This document shows, in pieces, positions 20,464 through 26,222 of a DNA stretch of 29,206 nucleotides. Where the stretch lies: the IMG/VR virus record IMGVR_UViG_3300042542_001082, positions 1 through 29,206 of that record; one strand, 5' to 3'. The stretch is from a virus. The notes under the pieces are model-generated. The model searched no databases. It was not told where the DNA came from and saw only the letters and a program-made list of their open reading frames with translations. The position numbers and the translations under genes were made by a program. Numbering within the stretch: position 1 is the first letter of the stretch; each line of letters begins with the position of its first letter.

Positions 20464-23400
20464 ATGGCTGGGAAGACATATATAAAAACATCAGATACTA
20501 CATGGGCTAAAATAAAAAAGATTTACTTGAAGACTGGCGGGCAAACATGGACTGCTGTAAGAAAAGCTTATATAAAAACTGGAACAGGTACTTGGAGAAA
20601 AGTATATGATACTGCAAGCAATAAACCATTTTTAAGAAATAATGACTTCCCAAGAATAAGACTTAATTCATTTAGAAGTGCTGGGTATATAGAAGCTCCT
20701 CCAGTCCAAATGATGGGGCCATCAACTGGATCTGCCAATGGTTGGCCTTTAGGAGCAATAGGAACCTACTTATATGGGGCTAATGCAGACGATTTATCTA
20801 ATTATGTTTCTGGAAACGGAAGTAGCATTACTTACACCTACAATTGGTACTGGAACGAAACTGGAAATCAAAACGATGACCAAGAATGGACTGGCGACGT
20901 AAATTCTGGATCAGATAGAGATTTATTTCAAAATAACTCTACATACTTAGGAGCATCTGACGGCGACTACTTTGATAAAAATTTTCTTACATTTAAAGTC
21001 AATGCAACCAATTCAGCAGGAACTCTTTCAGCTAGCAGCCCACAAGTTTATATTGTAAGGCAAAGACCTAGCGGAACAATTAATTTAATAAATACTAGCG
21101 TTGATGTTCCAGAAACATTATCTGCAAGTTTTACTTATCAAAATGAGTGGTATAGAAAACCAGACTTAGCTAATTCATACATAGAATGGTTTGCAATAGA
21201 TTCTGCTGGAGAAGCATTAACAACAAGCAACAGAGTAGCAATAGAATATTTAAATTCTGTAGTTACAACTGGCACAACAACAAAATCTGGAACGGTATAT
21301 CATAATGCCACATTAGCAAATAAAATATATACAGTGCGTATTACTTTGAATAACTCAAACACTCAATCTGCAGTAATTCCTATATCTGGATTTATCCCAA
21401 CTTCTCCAGTTACTCAAGAAGATTCAACGGATCCAGGATCAGAAATTTCTGTTACCACATTAAACATTTTAGATTATTATAATCAAAAAGGTACTGACAA
21501 CAGAGGATATATTCCAGTTGCAGGACTTTTTAAAATTCAATCTAATGTAACTGGTGTTAATTCAAGCACAACATATAGAATTAGATACAGAATATTTAAT
21601 TGGCAAAACCTTAGCTACTATGGAATGGATGGAACAAATTATGGATCTGCCGCTAGTAGTGCATGGACTACAAGAACTGGATCTAATTCGAGTTTTGGCT
21701 TTGGCGGAACATTAATTAATAACATTACCGTATCAGGAACAACTGCTACATTAACTCACAATGAAAGCATCAGCTCATCTTCGTTTGGATCAACTACCTT
21801 TGCCCCTGGAGGCCAAGATAGATGGCAAATTGAAATAGAAGTTAGTGCTTTAAAGAATTCAGTAAGAAAATATTATGCAGATGTGGTTGGCGGAATTCCG
21901 TATTATGTTTCTAGAGCAGCAACCTCAACACTTTCTGCATCTCCTTCTAATGCTCAAGTAAATGAGAATGTAACCCTTTCTGGCTCATTTGGAGGCCTAG
22001 GAGGAGGCAGTTCTTATCCAAGACAATACAGGATTTATTATGGAGATGGAACCGACAGCGGATACTTGCCAATTGGAGAATACTCCTTTGGAACTGCCAA
22101 TCCAAGTTTTTCAGTAACAAAACAGTATACTGCCACTGGAGAATATTTTCCATATATTATAACAATGCCAGACTACCAAACCACTAGTACATCTCTTGTG
22201 GTTGCTGCAGCATTAACTGCACCGACAAGTACATCTATTGTTTCTATGTCTAGACTTAATGATACTACAGTTAGAGCAGTTATTGGTTCCTCTGGCGGAA
22301 GCGGACCTTATTATCAACTATACTGGACAAGTGGGGTTGCTCCAACAACAGCATCATATGACGCTGCAGGCACAACAAGTACCGTAACAGAAGATTTTAG
22401 TTTTTCAAATGGAATCACATATTATTTTTACATGAGATCTTCTAATCAAAACTTAGGGGACACAATAGTTAATGGAACTGCAACAGCTGGAACTTATAGT
22501 GCGTATGGAGGATCAGCCTCGTATACTTTTGCTCAGCCATCTGGAACTATGAGCGTTTCTCCGTCATCTGGTACAGCTGGATCTACACAATTTACTGCAA
22601 CTCCTTCTATAAGTTCTGCTCCTAATGCACAAATATCATATCAGTGGCAGTATTTTGAAGGCGGGTCTTTTGGATGGGTTGCACTAAGTGGAGCTACATC
22701 TTCAACATATACGCCACCTTCAAACTATGTTTCTATATACGGATCTAATTTAAGATGCCAAATAACTGCAAATAATGGAGTTGGAAATACTCTTACACTA
22801 TCTGCGAATGCAACTGTTGCAGCAGCAGCATCAAAACTATCGACTCCAAGTAATGTTGCAGCAACAGATAATCTTTCAACTGGTATTAGAGTTTCTTGGA
22901 CAAATGTATCAAATGCGGCAACTTACGGAGTTTGGTGGGGAGGACAACCAGGATATGATAGTAGCCCAGACTTTGGAGGACCAAATAATAATGGCGGGAA
23001 AACAATTACAGGTACCCCATTTTTGGACGATGGCGTTGCAACTGGAACTACTAGAGATTACTATGTCCAAGCATTTCCTGCTTCTGGCTCTACCTCATTT
23101 TTAAAATCAGATTGGTCACTAGGAGATTCTGGAACAAGAGTGGCAGCAGCCACTGCTCCAACTGGTGGATCTGTATCGGTAAATCCAACAACTGGAACAG
23201 CTGGATCTACAACATATACCGCATCAACATCTGGTTGGACAGGATCAGGAACCATAACCTATTCCTACTCCTGGCAAAGATTTACAAACGGTGTATTTTC
23301 ATATCAAGAGATAGCAACTGGATCAACATTTTCACCTACAGTAAGTCAAAATTCTAGCGCATTAGCTTGGCTATTAGTTGTTACAGCTTCTAATGGAGTG

Positions 23401-23745
23401 TCTCCAAATGGTACAGCATCTACATCATTTACAGTAAATAATCCAGTAGCATCTACTCCATCAACTCCTGGAACTCCGACTTTGACATACGTTCCTGCAA
23501 ATAATACTTCTACTACTTGGGGATATAGCGCAACTTGGGGTGCATCTACTGGAACAGGAACAATTCAGTATCAGATAGACGGTCTAGGCTCATCTGGAGG
23601 ATCAGCAACACTAGGTCTTTATGGCACAAACTCTGCAAGTTTTAATTTGTCTAGAAACGATAACCTCTGGCAAATAAGGGTACGAGCTACAAACAATGGC
23701 GGATCAACTTGGTCTAGCTATTCAGGATACTCAAACTCAGCATAG
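20464..23745 (+). CDS. Large fibre protein: N-terminal 15-residue repeats plus Ig/FnIII-like domains
   Basis: A protein of 1093 residues. Residues 4-48 are three perfect-length 15-residue repeats, KTYIKTSDTTWAKIK, KIYLKTGGQTWTAVR and KAYIKTGTGTWRKVY, likely a basic beta attachment module. The rest is beta-rich: an Ig-like domain about 72-195 (TYTYNWYWNETG), middle domains with a PKD-like feel near 495-580 (RIYYGDGTDSGY), an Ig-like domain near 690-785 (ISYQWQYFEGG), a FnIII-like domain near 794-890 (PSNVAATDNLSTGIRVSWT), a second Ig-like copy near 900-995 (ITYSYSWQRFTNG) and a final domain to the end. Two domains start with related phrases, MSVSPSSGTAGSTQFTA and VSVNPTTGTAGSTTYTA. No enzyme motif was recognised. 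Likely an adhesive fibre. The next gene's ribosome site overlaps its stop codon. Confidence 0.65.
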   Translation: MAGKTYIKTSDTTWAKIKKIYLKTGGQTWTAVRKAYIKTGTGTWRKVYDTASNKPFLRNNDFPRIRLNSFRSAGYIEAPPVQMMGPSTGSANGWPLGAIGTYLYGANADDLSNYVSGNGSSITYTYNWYWNETGNQNDDQEWTGDVNSGSDRDLFQNNSTYLGASDGDYFDKNFLTFKVNATNSAGTLSASSPQVYIVRQRPSGTINLINTSVDVPETLSASFTYQNEWYRKPDLANSYIEWFAIDSAGEALTTSNRVAIEYLNSVVTTGTTTKSGTVYHNATLANKIYTVRITLNNSNTQSAVIPISGFIPTSPVTQEDSTDPGSEISVTTLNILDYYNQKGTDNRGYIPVAGLFKIQSNVTGVNSSTTYRIRYRIFNWQNLSYYGMDGTNYGSAASSAWTTRTGSNSSFGFGGTLINNITVSGTTATLTHNESISSSSFGSTTFAPGGQDRWQIEIEVSALKNSVRKYYADVVGGIPYYVSRAATSTLSASPSNAQVNENVTLSGSFGGLGGGSSYPRQYRIYYGDGTDSGYLPIGEYSFGTANPSFSVTKQYTATGEYFPYIITMPDYQTTSTSLVVAAALTAPTSTSIVSMSRLNDTTVRAVIGSSGGSGPYYQLYWTSGVAPTTASYDAAGTTSTVTEDFSFSNGITYYFYMRSSNQNLGDTIVNGTATAGTYSAYGGSASYTFAQPSGTMSVSPSSGTAGSTQFTATPSISSAPNAQISYQWQYFEGGSFGWVALSGATSSTYTPPSNYVSIYGSNLRCQITANNGVGNTLTLSANATVAAAASKLSTPSNVAATDNLSTGIRVSWTNVSNAATYGVWWGGQPGYDSSPDFGGPNNNGGKTITGTPFLDDGVATGTTRDYYVQAFPASGSTSFLKSDWSLGDSGTRVAAATAPTGGSVSVNPTTGTAGSTTYTASTSGWTGSGTITYSYSWQRFTNGVFSYQEIATGSTFSPTVSQNSSALAWLLVVTASNGVSPNGTASTSFTVNNPVASTPSTPGTPTLTYVPANNTSTTWGYSATWGASTGTGTIQYQIDGLGSSGGSATLGLYGTNSASFNLSRNDNLWQIRVRATNNGGSTWSSYSGYSNSA

Positions 23746-23752
23746 GAGTCAT

Positions 23753-23941
23753 ATGAATATAGAAGAAAAAAGAAATATAATTTTACAAAGAATATCTCAA
23801 TTAGATGAACGTATTCAAATACTTCAATCTAATATAGATGGCGGGTACCAAAATAAAGAAGGATTACCAAGCTTTGAGTCTTTAATTCAAGATTCAATAA
23901 GGGCAAAAAATGCTCTTATTGCCGCTATTGACGATTTATAG
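23753..23941 (+). CDS. Small helical-hairpin protein, unknown function
   Basis: A protein of 62 residues. AGGAGT at 23744-23749 and ATG 23753 fix the start; the frame is open farther upstream inside the fibre gene, but that part is a shadow. Two predicted helices (EEKRNIILQRISQLDERIQI and FESLIQDSIRAKNALIAAID) flank a polar loop with GGYQNKEGLP. The heptad spacing of I and L suggests a coiled-coil hairpin. No membrane segment, so not a holin. It follows the fibre gene with seven bases between stop and start and carries the -35 element of the next promoter in its last codons. It may be a fibre-associated or trimerising partner; I do not recognise the family. Confidence 0.62.
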   Translation: MNIEEKRNIILQRISQLDERIQILQSNIDGGYQNKEGLPSFESLIQDSIRAKNALIAAIDDL

Positions 23942-23957
23942 TTAAATGGTATAATAA
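23928..23957 (+). promoter_or_regulatory. Strong sigma70-like promoter with extended -10
   Basis: TTGACG at 23928-23933 and TGGTATAAT at 23947-23955 are separated so that the hexamers lie 16 bases apart. The -35 lies inside the last codons of the preceding gene. The expected start near 23962 leaves an 11-base leader that is little more than the ribosome site AGGAGG. Confidence 0.68.
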
Positions 23958-23972
23958 TGAAAGGAGGCAAAA

Positions 23973-24188
23973 ATGACATTGTTAACAAATGCAGATAAGT
24001 TAAACCTTGTAAATCAGCACATGAAAAGTATTGATTTCCAGATGTATAATTTTCAGCTAGATCTAATTGAAGCAAATTCTGAATCTCCAGTAAATTCAGA
24101 AACTGTTTCAAATATTACTGGTAAAATTAACGTTTTAACCGCAAAGAGAACTGCTCTGGAATCAGAAGCAGAAGGATTAGAGGAATAG
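23973..24188 (+). CDS. Small helical-hairpin protein, related in plan to its upstream neighbour
   Basis: A protein of 71 residues, with AAGGAGG at 23961-23967 five bases before ATG 23973. Helix one (KLNLVNQHMKSIDFQMYNFQ, continuing to LDLIEA) and helix two (VSNITGKINVLTAKRTALES) flank a loop SESPVNSE. It has the same helix-loop-helix plan and similar size as the 62-residue protein before it. Small coiled-coil proteins of this style occur near tail-fibre genes in actinophages by my recollection; none has a known job. It has its own strong promoter, so it can be made apart from the fibres. Confidence 0.62.
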   Translation: MTLLTNADKLNLVNQHMKSIDFQMYNFQLDLIEANSESPVNSETVSNITGKINVLTAKRTALESEAEGLEE

Positions 24189-24196
24189 GAATATAA

Positions 24197-24382
24197 ATGG
24201 CAGAAAAAGCGGAATTAGTTATTACCGCCCTACAGCAACGCATAGGAGAGATTGTATCTAATTATGAAACTCAAATTGCATTTTTACGGGCAGAAATTAC
24301 TAAGCTTATGGAAGAAAGGGATGCAAAGGTTGAAGCTGTTAAAGACTACGAAGAACACCTTAGCGATCTCACAGCCGACTAA
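24197..24382 (+). CDS. Small coiled-coil protein
   Basis: A protein of 61 residues that is almost one continuous helix with heptad character (ELVITALQQRIGEIVSNYET, FLRAEITKLMEERDAKVEAV). AGGA at 24187-24190 precedes ATG 24197 by six bases, and the preceding stop is eight bases upstream. Such a rod could trimerise the domain encoded just downstream in another frame (start near 24321, clear protein sequence only from about 24366). The two may be separate chains or one protein made by a frameshift; see the findings. Confidence 0.58.
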   Translation: MAEKAELVITALQQRIGEIVSNYETQIAFLRAEITKLMEERDAKVEAVKDYEEHLSDLTAD

Positions 24383-24728
24383 TTTTCCTTCAGGTATCGC
24401 TGTAAAAACAGATAAAGATACGTATTGGATTAAAGATGGTAAAAGATATAAATTGATTTCCGATAGGGCCGCCCAGTCTTGGTGCTTTACTACCGTATTG
24501 GCAACTGAGGCGGCATTATCAGGGATTAAGCTTGTAGGTAAGCTAGGATTTAGAGACGGCACCTTGATCAAGAACGTCGCAGATGGTAAAATGTATCTAG
24601 TATCACAGAATAAACTAAGACACATTGTAGACCCAGATTCATTTAATCGATACGGTCTCGATAGGTCAAAAATGATTGAGGTTTCTGAAAAAGAAATTTC
24701 AGCACACGATTTAGGAGAAAATTTATAA
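24321..24728 (+). CDS. Virion surface protein with two short WIKDGKRY-type beta repeats
   Basis: The frame is open from 24252, but everything before about 24366 is the shadow of the coiled-coil gene in another frame. I give ATG 24321, preceded by GGAAG at 24310-24314, for a 135-residue product, with low certainty about the start. The credible part begins SQPTNFPSGIAVKTDKDTYW. It carries two related units, TYWIKDGKRYKLIS near 34-47 followed by a hydrophobic stretch, and MYLVSQNKLRHIVDPDSF near 91-108. This pattern (aromatic-hydrophobic strand, Gly/Asn turn, basic R/K, then a helix ending F..xG) occurs in repeat domains of secreted bacterial surface proteins. A cell-wall-facing, possibly fibre-tip role is inferred. 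It overlaps the next ATG (TAATG). Confidence 0.5.
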   Translation: MQRLKLLKTTKNTLAISQPTNFPSGIAVKTDKDTYWIKDGKRYKLISDRAAQSWCFTTVLATEAALSGIKLVGKLGFRDGTLIKNVADGKMYLVSQNKLRHIVDPDSFNRYGLDRSKMIEVSEKEISAHDLGENL

Positions 24729-25150
24729 TGGCAGCATTTGATGATGGAACCCCTTTAGACGCAGCCGCTCTACAGGATTTAGACAGAAGGCTTGTTGAAT
24801 TAAAAGCAAGCATACCTGATGTTGGATCTCCTAACAAAGCAAATACCCCTGGAAGTTTAGAAAATCTAACGGTTAACGCAAAACAAATAATCGGTGGTAT
24901 TAGTGATGCTGTAAAACTTAAGCCAGGAGCAGCAGTTCCTTTTACAATTAATTTTAAAACAACATTAGCATCAAATCCAAAAGCAGTAATTCTTACTCCA
25001 ATAAGAACTGCAAACATTCCAAGCGTATTTAGTTTTGCAGTAGACAGTAAGACCCTTGGGCCAGATAAGGTTTCAGGAAATGCTTATTTAAACTCAGCAG
25101 CAAAAGAAGGCTACACAATTCATTTCTATTGGATGGCAATTTGCCACTAG
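24728..25150 (+). CDS. Probable receptor-binding protein with lectin-like C-terminal domain
   Basis: A protein of 140 residues. An N-terminal helix (AAALQDLDRRLVELKASIP) is followed by a Gly/Pro linker and by GSLENLTVNAKQIIGGISDA. From about residue 60 the pattern is beta: AVPFTINFKTTLASNPKAVI, LTPIRT, VFSFAVDS and the closing YTIHFYWMAICH. A strand phrase of the form P-K-A-V-I-L-T-P and an ending I-H-F-x-W-M-A-I resemble H-type-lectin-like domains found at the C-termini of phage fibres. It is the last gene of the structural region, the usual place for an adsorption protein. The fold is judged from pattern only. ATG 24728 overlaps the preceding TAA. Confidence 0.5.
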   Translation: MAAFDDGTPLDAAALQDLDRRLVELKASIPDVGSPNKANTPGSLENLTVNAKQIIGGISDAVKLKPGAAVPFTINFKTTLASNPKAVILTPIRTANIPSVFSFAVDSKTLGPDKVSGNAYLNSAAKEGYTIHFYWMAICH

Positions 25151-25154
25151 CCTA

Positions 25155-25182
25155 TTGACAGGCTGCTTAAATATGCTACAAT
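25155..25182 (+). promoter_or_regulatory. Strong promoter for the replication genes
   Basis: TTGACA at 25155-25160 is a perfect -35, 16 bases before TACAAT at 25177-25182, which is extended by TGC. The expected start near 25189 lies eight bases before a perfect hairpin. It is the only promoter seen for the metallophosphoesterase-helicase-primase block. Confidence 0.7.
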
Positions 25183-25196
25183 TTATATAATATCAA

Positions 25197-25221
25197 GGTC
25201 ACGACTCCGTGACCCTTTTTT
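25197..25221 (+). terminator. Hairpin with T-tract between promoter and replication genes
   Basis: GGTCACG at 25197-25203 pairs perfectly with CGTGACC at 25208-25214 around ACTC, and six T residues follow (25216-25221). It would end the tail-fibre transcripts, but it also lies within the first 35 bases of transcripts from the promoter at 25155-25182, so it may be an attenuator or an 18-base operator palindrome. Confidence 0.6.
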
Positions 25222-25236: not shown

Positions 25237-26037
25237 ATGACAAACGATTTAAAATGGATGTTGTCATCCGATCAGCAGTTCCCTTATCAAGACGATAAGA
25301 TGATTGCGCTATGGTTTAAGGTTATGAAATGGTTTAAACCAGATGTAGTAGATTATCTAGGGGACACAGACGATCAAGCTTGCTACAGTAAATATACAGA
25401 GGGAAGATCTGCAGAATTTCTTCAGCTTCATAAAGATGATAGCCGTGACTTAATTGTTCCTATGATGAGACATGAAGCAAAAGGTGCAAGAGACTTTTAT
25501 GCTAAGACTCGTGAGATGCTTCCAGATGCACAATTGTTTTCAGCATTAGGAAACCATGACATACGTATCTTTGATTATATAGACAAGAAGCTTCCAGATT
25601 ATGCAAAGGATGTTACTCCAGAATCCTTATGGTCTTTAGACTCATTAGGATATGAATATATTTATTATGACTCATTGCCTAAGCGCCGTTTTGGAGATGT
25701 TCACGTACACCACGGAATTTCTATTGCAGCAACTGGTTCTGTTCGTAAAGACATGGAAGACCTACAGGTATCTTTAATTAGAGGACATTCTCATAGAATT
25801 GCTTCGCATATGGTAACATATGAACTTAGAAACGGTGGCGAAGGAGAAACTCTTCGTGGATATGAAATTGGTCACATGTGTGATGAAAAGGGGCCAGGAA
25901 TGAAATATACTCAACACCACGATTGGCAAAAAGGGTTTGCAATTGCACATATTGTAAACGATTACCCACACATTCAAATGATCCATATTGCTCCAGACTA
26001 CTCATGCGTCGTGGACGGAAAGACATTCTCTCTATGA
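25237..26037 (+). CDS. Calcineurin-like metallophosphoesterase
   Basis: A protein of 266 residues with the metal-binding motifs of the calcineurin-like phosphoesterase family in order: SSDQQFP near 10-16 (position of the usual DxH; the His appears replaced by Gln), GDTDD at 42-46, GNHD at 105-108, HVHHG at 156-160 and GHSH at 183-186. It would hydrolyse phosphoesters, probably of DNA or nucleotides, using two metal ions, in the cytoplasm. AGGGA at 25226-25230 lies six bases before ATG 25237. It is first in the replication block and overlaps the zinc-ribbon gene by four bases, so a job in DNA replication or repair is inferred. Loss of the first His is tolerated in several family branches but is worth checking. 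Confidence 0.85.
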   Translation: MTNDLKWMLSSDQQFPYQDDKMIALWFKVMKWFKPDVVDYLGDTDDQACYSKYTEGRSAEFLQLHKDDSRDLIVPMMRHEAKGARDFYAKTREMLPDAQLFSALGNHDIRIFDYIDKKLPDYAKDVTPESLWSLDSLGYEYIYYDSLPKRRFGDVHVHHGISIAATGSVRKDMEDLQVSLIRGHSHRIASHMVTYELRNGGEGETLRGYEIGHMCDEKGPGMKYTQHHDWQKGFAIAHIVNDYPHIQMIHIAPDYSCVVDGKTFSL

Positions 26038-26222
26038 TGAAATGTCAAAAGTGTAATGGTAGAGTATTTGTTGATAGAGTATTCTCTCAAAAATTACATA
26101 CCGAATTATTTTGCATCCTTTGCGGTAAGCGATGGATGATTAACAAGGAAACAAGTGCGTTTGGTAAATGGCTAGAGAAAACAGACAAAGATTACGCAAA
26201 AAGTTCGTCTATTTCTTCTTAA
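26034..26222 (+). CDS. Small zinc-ribbon protein
   Basis: A protein of 62 residues with two CxxC pairs, C4/C7 and C27/C30 (KCQKCNGRVFVDRVFS and ELFCILCGKRWM), the spacing of a zinc ribbon. The C-terminus is polar (FGKWLEKTDKDYAK). ATG 26034 overlaps the phosphoesterase stop (ATGA); the longer upstream frame is a shadow. Similar small zinc proteins, in my recollection, sit before an HTH gene in many actinophages. It may bind nucleic acid or RNA polymerase; its function is unknown. Confidence 0.75.
   Translation: MMKCQKCNGRVFVDRVFSQKLHTELFCILCGKRWMINKETSAFGKWLEKTDKDYAKSSSISS

Follow-up and report, generated by a model that had tools for sequence, protein, structure and literature searches.

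The five small genes that follow the giant fibre genes of the window, a 29.2-kb IMG/VR virus contig, resolve into a fibre tip joined with the first gene (g1), a promoter, a more constant g2-g3-g4 group, and g5. We propose, as the reading we favour with moderate confidence, that they form a separately recombining host-recognition end of the tail-gene cluster, in which g1 and g2 would act as helpers and g5 as a lectin-type receptor-binding protein.

All five genes lie consecutively on the + strand between positions 23753 and 25150 and encode proteins of 62 (g1), 71 (g2), 61 (g3), 132 (g4) and 140 (g5) amino acids. Comparison with relatives gave pN/pS values of 0.13-0.55, indicating purifying selection on every one of them. 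The preliminary description of this region was accurate about its inventory: no membrane helix is present in the five proteins, because the highest Kyte-Doolittle 19-residue mean is only 1.31, and its two helix-loop-helix proteins, straight coiled coil, WIKDGKRY-type protein and lectin-like protein correspond to g1 and g2, g3, g4 and g5, with no enzyme match. The helical and coiled-coil character of g1-g3 rests on sequence, and predicted structures cover g4 and g5. Its view of the region as one of host recognition or fibre assembly was right in outline, but not its proposal of a single exchangeable unit, and it mentioned neither a promoter inside the end of g1 nor a promoter with a hairpin just after g5.

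In its major capsid protein the window shares 60% identity with Streptomyces phage Jada and the relatives of that phage, and the genes at this place follow the order of the Stanwilliamsviridae, namely minor tail protein, g3, g4, g5, (HNH), metallophosphoesterase, small genes and DnaB-like helicase; BillNye, Karimac and Tomas share the succession of minor tail protein, g3, g4, g5 position, HNH, phosphoesterase and helicase. Unlike the window, these Streptomyces phages carry no g1 or g2, and their g5 is one conserved family rather than a hypervariable one. Judging from such relatives, the window phage may be a freshwater relative of the Stanwilliamsviridae with an actinobacterial host. We found little literature on the tails of phages of this type. 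The comparison drew on roughly 70 related loci from IMG/VR and on 127 phages of Streptomyces (Stanwilliamsviridae).

The fibre tip and g1 are inherited together. The tip segment comprises the C-terminal ~120 residues of the fibre, which is 1093 aa long (23383..23742 for the tip, + strand), and g1 (23753..23941, +) encodes a 62-aa helix-loop-helix protein, a putative tip chaperone or cap. When the last 120 fibre residues and g1 were clustered by single linkage in the 32 distinct loci having both g1 and g2, the two clusterings agreed with an adjusted Rand index (ARI) of 0.92-0.97 (p=2e-4) and had six multi-member groups in common. Median g1 similarity was 0.57 between loci with similar tips and 0.11 otherwise, or 0.50 against 0.11 when pairs sharing g5 were excluded. 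Agreement with the tip clusters was 0.78 for fibre residues -120 to -60 and 0.32 for residues -180 to -120, and linkage to the tip dropped again at the g1/g2 border, from a Jaccard value of 0.72 to about 0.1. The tip and g1 type of the window recur in L016 and L020, and L016 is placed elsewhere in the g3+g4 tree. New contigs were also sought by the window tip and the L042 tip alone. In all five new loci (L082, L083, L084, L090 and L091) the adjacent g1 was closest to the expected type, with similarities of 0.32-0.73. Two exceptions were seen, L061, which has the common ...YSAW.PS.TTY tip and no g1, and L063, in which a known tip type is paired with a discordant g1.

This co-inheritance could come about through adjacency and recombination at the borders of domains, and not through a physical pairing. 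One rival reading is that g1 would hitch-hike, being carried because it sits between the fibre tip and a recombination-prone promoter. Such an account draws on the tight physical linkage and on the loci in which g1 is missing or replaced, but g1 is under purifying selection, the pairing persists at only 51-75% tip identity, and the stretch of fibre directly upstream of the tip, at no greater distance from it than g1, is much less linked (Jaccard 0.26 vs 0.72 for g1). We consider hitch-hiking improbable. In the favoured model, the tip of the large fibre and g1 would make up one cartridge, and g1 is probably a helical chaperone or cap specific to its fibre, which would trimerise the tip or protect it.

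Several loci have other genes or domains at these positions. A GlcNAc-type glycosyltransferase gene takes the place of g1 in L023, L035, L044 and L046 (in L044, for example, at L044:4776-5675, matching PF11397 with E=2.9e-36) and perhaps glycosylates tail proteins, and two other small genes stand there in L025, L036 and L055. In L067 (L067:4766-5665) a PDFTPTP repeat of the fibre is followed by what seems to be a terminal domain of the Hint (intein/hedgehog-like) type (PT-HINT, E=0.004, under the curated cut-off), and in L059 (L059:4740-5639) the fibre ends in a FFPPFFPPFFPP repeat and then a cysteine-containing tail.

A putative promoter, TTGACG-16-TATAAT with TG before the -10 element, overlaps the end of g1 (23928..23955, +) and is followed by AAAGGAGG at 23960-23967. 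Its consensus among relatives is TTGAC[TG]-16-TATAAT with the TG extension, located 21-26 bases 5' of the g2 ATG. Across 42 distinct loci, TATAAT is found in 39, the TG extension in 38, and a -35 element with at least five of six matches in 32, and the promoter is kept whatever gene precedes it. The window holds three extended -10 sites of this type, against 0.5 expected. The LTNQG end of many g1 proteins was rejected as a protein motif, since the promoter's TTGACTAATCAGGG, read as codons, gives these residues. From the conserved promoter between the two genes it follows that g1 probably belongs transcriptionally with the fibre and that g2-g5 would be under their own putative promoter.

The second gene, g2 (23973..24188, +), encodes a 71-aa helix-loop-helix protein that appears to be a paralogue of g1. 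Homology between the two, which the preliminary description had seen as a common plan, was recovered at the profile level (hhalign 98.1%, E=8.5e-14), where helical proteins can inflate such scores. Unlike g1, g2 is a single family in all loci that have it, unlinked to tip type; its matrix correlation with the fibre middle is r=0.28. We suppose that g2 could be the common version of the g1 helper, made from its own strong promoter.

A functional hint for both genes comes from the relatives that do not carry them. In all eight distinct loci of one group (L048-L053, L056 and L057), g1 and g2 are absent and the fibre ends in a Peptidase_S74 (endosialidase) intramolecular chaperone domain (PF13884), which was found in none of 34 fibres from other loci and is not present in the window. 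In the S74 loci a site similar to the promoter lies 5' of g3, where the fibre gene's end runs into it. In the g3+g4 tree L047, a locus with g1 and g2, is the well-supported sister of the S74 locus L057 within the S74 group, so that a switch between S74 and g1/g2 took place at least once on the same backbone; the exclusion may rest on only one to three evolutionary events. That S74-bearing fibres lack both genes points to g1 and g2 as fibre-assembly chaperones or caps, a role also suggested by the tip pairing and the literature. As a separate protein, g1 would then do the job that the S74 domain does while fused to the fibre.

Alternatively, g1 and also g2 could be permanent virion parts that sit at the tip of the fibre as a helical collar or plug rather than acting as chaperones. 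The same tip-g1 co-inheritance would be expected of such parts, and the proteins are small helical hairpins with no enzyme or membrane features. However, the loci with a chaperone-ended fibre have neither gene, for which help in assembly is the better fit, and L061 has the same tip type without g1. We regard a permanent place in the virion as rather unlikely, while still a serious candidate.

Cognate chaperone modules associated with a fibre and encoded downstream of it include Tfa of Mu and lambda and gp57A and gp38 of T4, among which gp57A is a helical fibre chaperone. No membership in these families (Tfa, gp38, gp57A) was found for g1 or g2: neither window protein has a Pfam match, the window g1 has no PHROG family, and the PHROG matches of relatives are not consistent. 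The scattered Pfam and PHROG identities that did appear for g1 and g2 were at chance level and were rejected. Genes for fibre chaperones are often found immediately after the gene of the fibre itself (PMC6363177), and in modules such as gp26/gp27 of Alteromonas phage V22 and gp8/gp9 of A5 a small gene right after the fibre is swapped with the tip (PMC10579305, PMC6363177). The same holds for g1 but not for g2. In contrast to the known chaperones, to which no sequence relation was detected, g1 and g2 are helical hairpins of 60-75 aa. They occur as two paralogues, of which the first is specific to the tip and the second common, and a promoter separates them. It is tempting to see in g1 and g2 a new class of helper, in which paralogous helical hairpins, one for each tip type and one universal, are interchangeable with a fused S74 domain and a fixed promoter marks the border at which cartridges are exchanged between distant actinobacterial phages. 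This we put forward tentatively, as a possibility somewhat short of an even chance.

The third gene, g3 (24197..24382, +), encodes the straight coiled coil of the preliminary description. It is a 61-aa coiled-coil-like protein of phrog_10610 with a near-invariant N-terminus, ALQQRIGE..SNYETQIA.LRA, and has a counterpart in the Stanwilliamsviridae. In our model it would be a constant coiled-coil connector or an assembly protein. The next gene, g4 (24330..24728, +), likely starts within g3. No ATG lies near the g4 domain, and the likely start is TTG 24330, which gives a 53-nt overlap and a 132-aa protein. In the codon alignment of g3, the column of this start holds ATG, TTG or GTG in 41 of 55 loci, and the loci without NTG there have a start codon nearby. 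The third base of g3 at this column is T in 45/45 Y-ending codons, although the g3 residue varies (V/D/F/I/S/N/R), and third positions of g3 are T-rich and become C-rich only past the column, indicating dual coding well before the g3 stop. One further reading, first considered on account of the missing ATG, would have g3 and g4 made as one fused protein by +1 ribosomal frameshifting. The g4 frame is open into g3 and no conserved ATG stands next to the g4 domain, which speaks for such a fusion. In many relatives the frame is closed a short way upstream. Against the fusion stand the interchange of ATG, TTG and GTG at a single site with the third base of g3 fixed as T, the shift in third-base composition only after that site, and L090, a more distant relative found through its fibre tip, which has its own ATG directly at the g4 domain. 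The conserved internal NTG and the dual-coding pattern led us to reject frameshifting, which we consider very improbable, in favour of a g4 that begins inside g3.

The function of g4 can be narrowed down less closely. Its two WIKDGKRY/MYLVSQNKLRHI-type segments, which include the motif singled out in the preliminary description, do not amount to a significant internal repeat, and the protein matches phrog_9616 with E=2e-35. Searches with g4 returned 67 related IMG/VR loci and 134 phage records (127 Streptomyces, 7 Rhodococcus), and the phage records among the matches listed are all annotated as hypothetical; no bacterial homologue was confirmed in GTDB genomes. Beyond its own orthologues, the viral matches include several endolysin and wall-hydrolase proteins. 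Structure prediction gave a weak model, with one of five predictions reaching a pLDDT of 72.7 and the other four 51-56. When compared with the PDB by Foldseek, this model matched best the EccB proteins of ESX (type VII secretion) systems (EccB1, E=6.5e-3), with PlyCB further down, and EccB (PF05108) was also the Pfam family matched sub-threshold by most members (5/46; E=0.036), a likeness that is not significant by sequence. PDB matches of g4 to designed 'Cake' propellers were rejected, as they sum 2 bits per repeat over the repeats. The repeat of EccB1 resembles PlyCB, a phage wall-binding protein (Wagner et al., PMC4769845).

As a lead, g4 could be a constant accessory protein, translated from within g3 and possibly wall-binding. 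Of the two adhesin-like proteins of the preliminary description, g5 is lectin-like as claimed, while for g4 the adhesin label stays weak, its sole structural hints being these of EccB, PlyCB and endolysin wall-binding repeats. The same hints, including the likeness of EccB1 to PlyCB, could mean that g4 serves host lysis or wall handling and not the tail tip, the more so as an annotated holin is encoded a few genes downstream in the Streptomyces relatives. We find this unlikely, since g4 has no catalytic domain and lies between the tail genes and the receptor-binding g5, and the match to the PDB is modest with four of five predictions poor. In L091 (L091:3850-4120) g4 is cleanly missing and the g3 stop runs into the g5 start, which means that g3 and g5 can be joined without g4 and that g4 is dispensable in this phage.

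The last gene, g5 (24728..25150, +), encodes a putative receptor-binding protein of 140 aa, characterised by alignment, a model, Foldseek and profiles. It consists of a peg and helix (residues 1-29), a flexible linker, and a predicted beta-sandwich of the H-type-lectin/pyocin-foot type at residues ~52-140 (24881-25147, +). The aligned positional homologues begin with [FV][ND][DEA]G[DET]P[LI]D..., followed by the helix and linker, and M1, F4, D6, G7, P9, D11 and L18 are invariant in 36 sequences. The ~90 residues at the C-terminus are hypervariable, and in most of the proteins their last four are [YFW][ILMV][AV][IVL]. Identity in this domain falls to ~20% while the neighbouring g4 stays 68-98% identical, and nearly identical g4 proteins adjoin unrelated g5 C-domains. 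The model has a helix at residues 12-28, a disordered linker and mostly beta structure at 54-138, with a pLDDT of 74.5 overall and ~88 in the beta domain. Its top Foldseek matches in the PDB are the LKA1 gp49 tailspike, the R1 pyocin fibre foot, AP22 gp54/gp53 and Helix pomatia agglutinin (E 8e-4 to 2e-2, probability ~1), and the last was also matched by the sequence profile (E=5e-4), independently of the model. Pfam H_lectin (PF09458) was found in 13 of 36 g5 relatives (best 1.3e-6) and gp53-like (PF21882) in 3; the window's own g5 has no individual Pfam match. Searching phage records with the g5 sequence itself gave nothing, leaving positional counterparts only. Those of the Streptomyces phages make up a single conserved family, which falls into two groups with 78-99% and 36-39% identity to BillNye, and the BillNye protein has a KLN-type N-terminal helix and an ...NWIAMGY end.

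The foot of R-pyocins is a receptor-binding domain of lectin fold (PMC6363177). Like this foot, AP22 gp53, the C-terminal domain of LKA1 and the H-type lectins, g5 would end in a hypervariable lectin-fold beta-sandwich (PMC6363177), but here it is a distinct protein of ~140 aa, equipped with a peg, that carries the domain, instead of the end of a long fibre, and identity is only 12-18%. By its predicted fold and its swapping, g5 is a candidate short receptor-binding protein that is exchanged separately. The N-terminal peg would anchor it to the tail, and the hypervariable domain, exchanged alone, may contact surface sugars, as fold and literature suggest.

These patterns bear directly on the idea that all five genes make up a single exchangeable tip for host recognition and are swapped as a unit. 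In favour of it, the five are neighbours, and g3-g4-g5 occur together in nearly all g4-bearing loci and in the Streptomyces phages. However, the type of g5 shows no relation to that of the fibre or of g1 (ARI 0.05), g2 is linked to neither, g1 is often absent, and L082 and L083, found by their tips, have g1 and g3 while g4 and g5 are wholly absent. In short, g1 follows the fibre tip, g5 moves alone, g2 goes with neither and g3-g4 stay put, and the conserved promoter splits g1 from g2-g5. Exchange as one unit is almost certainly not what happens here.

Just beyond g5 lies a second putative promoter, TTGACA-16-TACAAT with TG before the -10 (25155..25182, +), for the next operon. It is followed at once by a terminator-like hairpin and then a run of T (25195..25216, +), both within the leader of the metallophosphoesterase gene. 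The stem differs among relatives, with changes matched on both sides (GTCACG/CGTGAC, GGCCACA/TGTGGCC, AACTGC/GCAGTT). This arrangement (25155-25216) suggests attenuation ahead of the metallophosphoesterase gene. After that gene, a small ORF (25923-26222) encodes a CxxC...CxxC protein at the place where the Streptomyces relatives have the annotated holin.

For these uncultured environmental phages, the model would mean that host recognition changes by the independent exchange of two parts, a fibre tip with its helper and a lectin protein, while the backbone stays constant. From the model one can predict which of the small uncharacterised proteins each fibre tip would need to be co-expressed with, and it suggests functions for proteins that bear no annotation beyond 'hypothetical' in more than 100 Streptomyces phages. 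Fibre chaperones that are fused (S74) and those that are separate may also be compared here in a natural setting.
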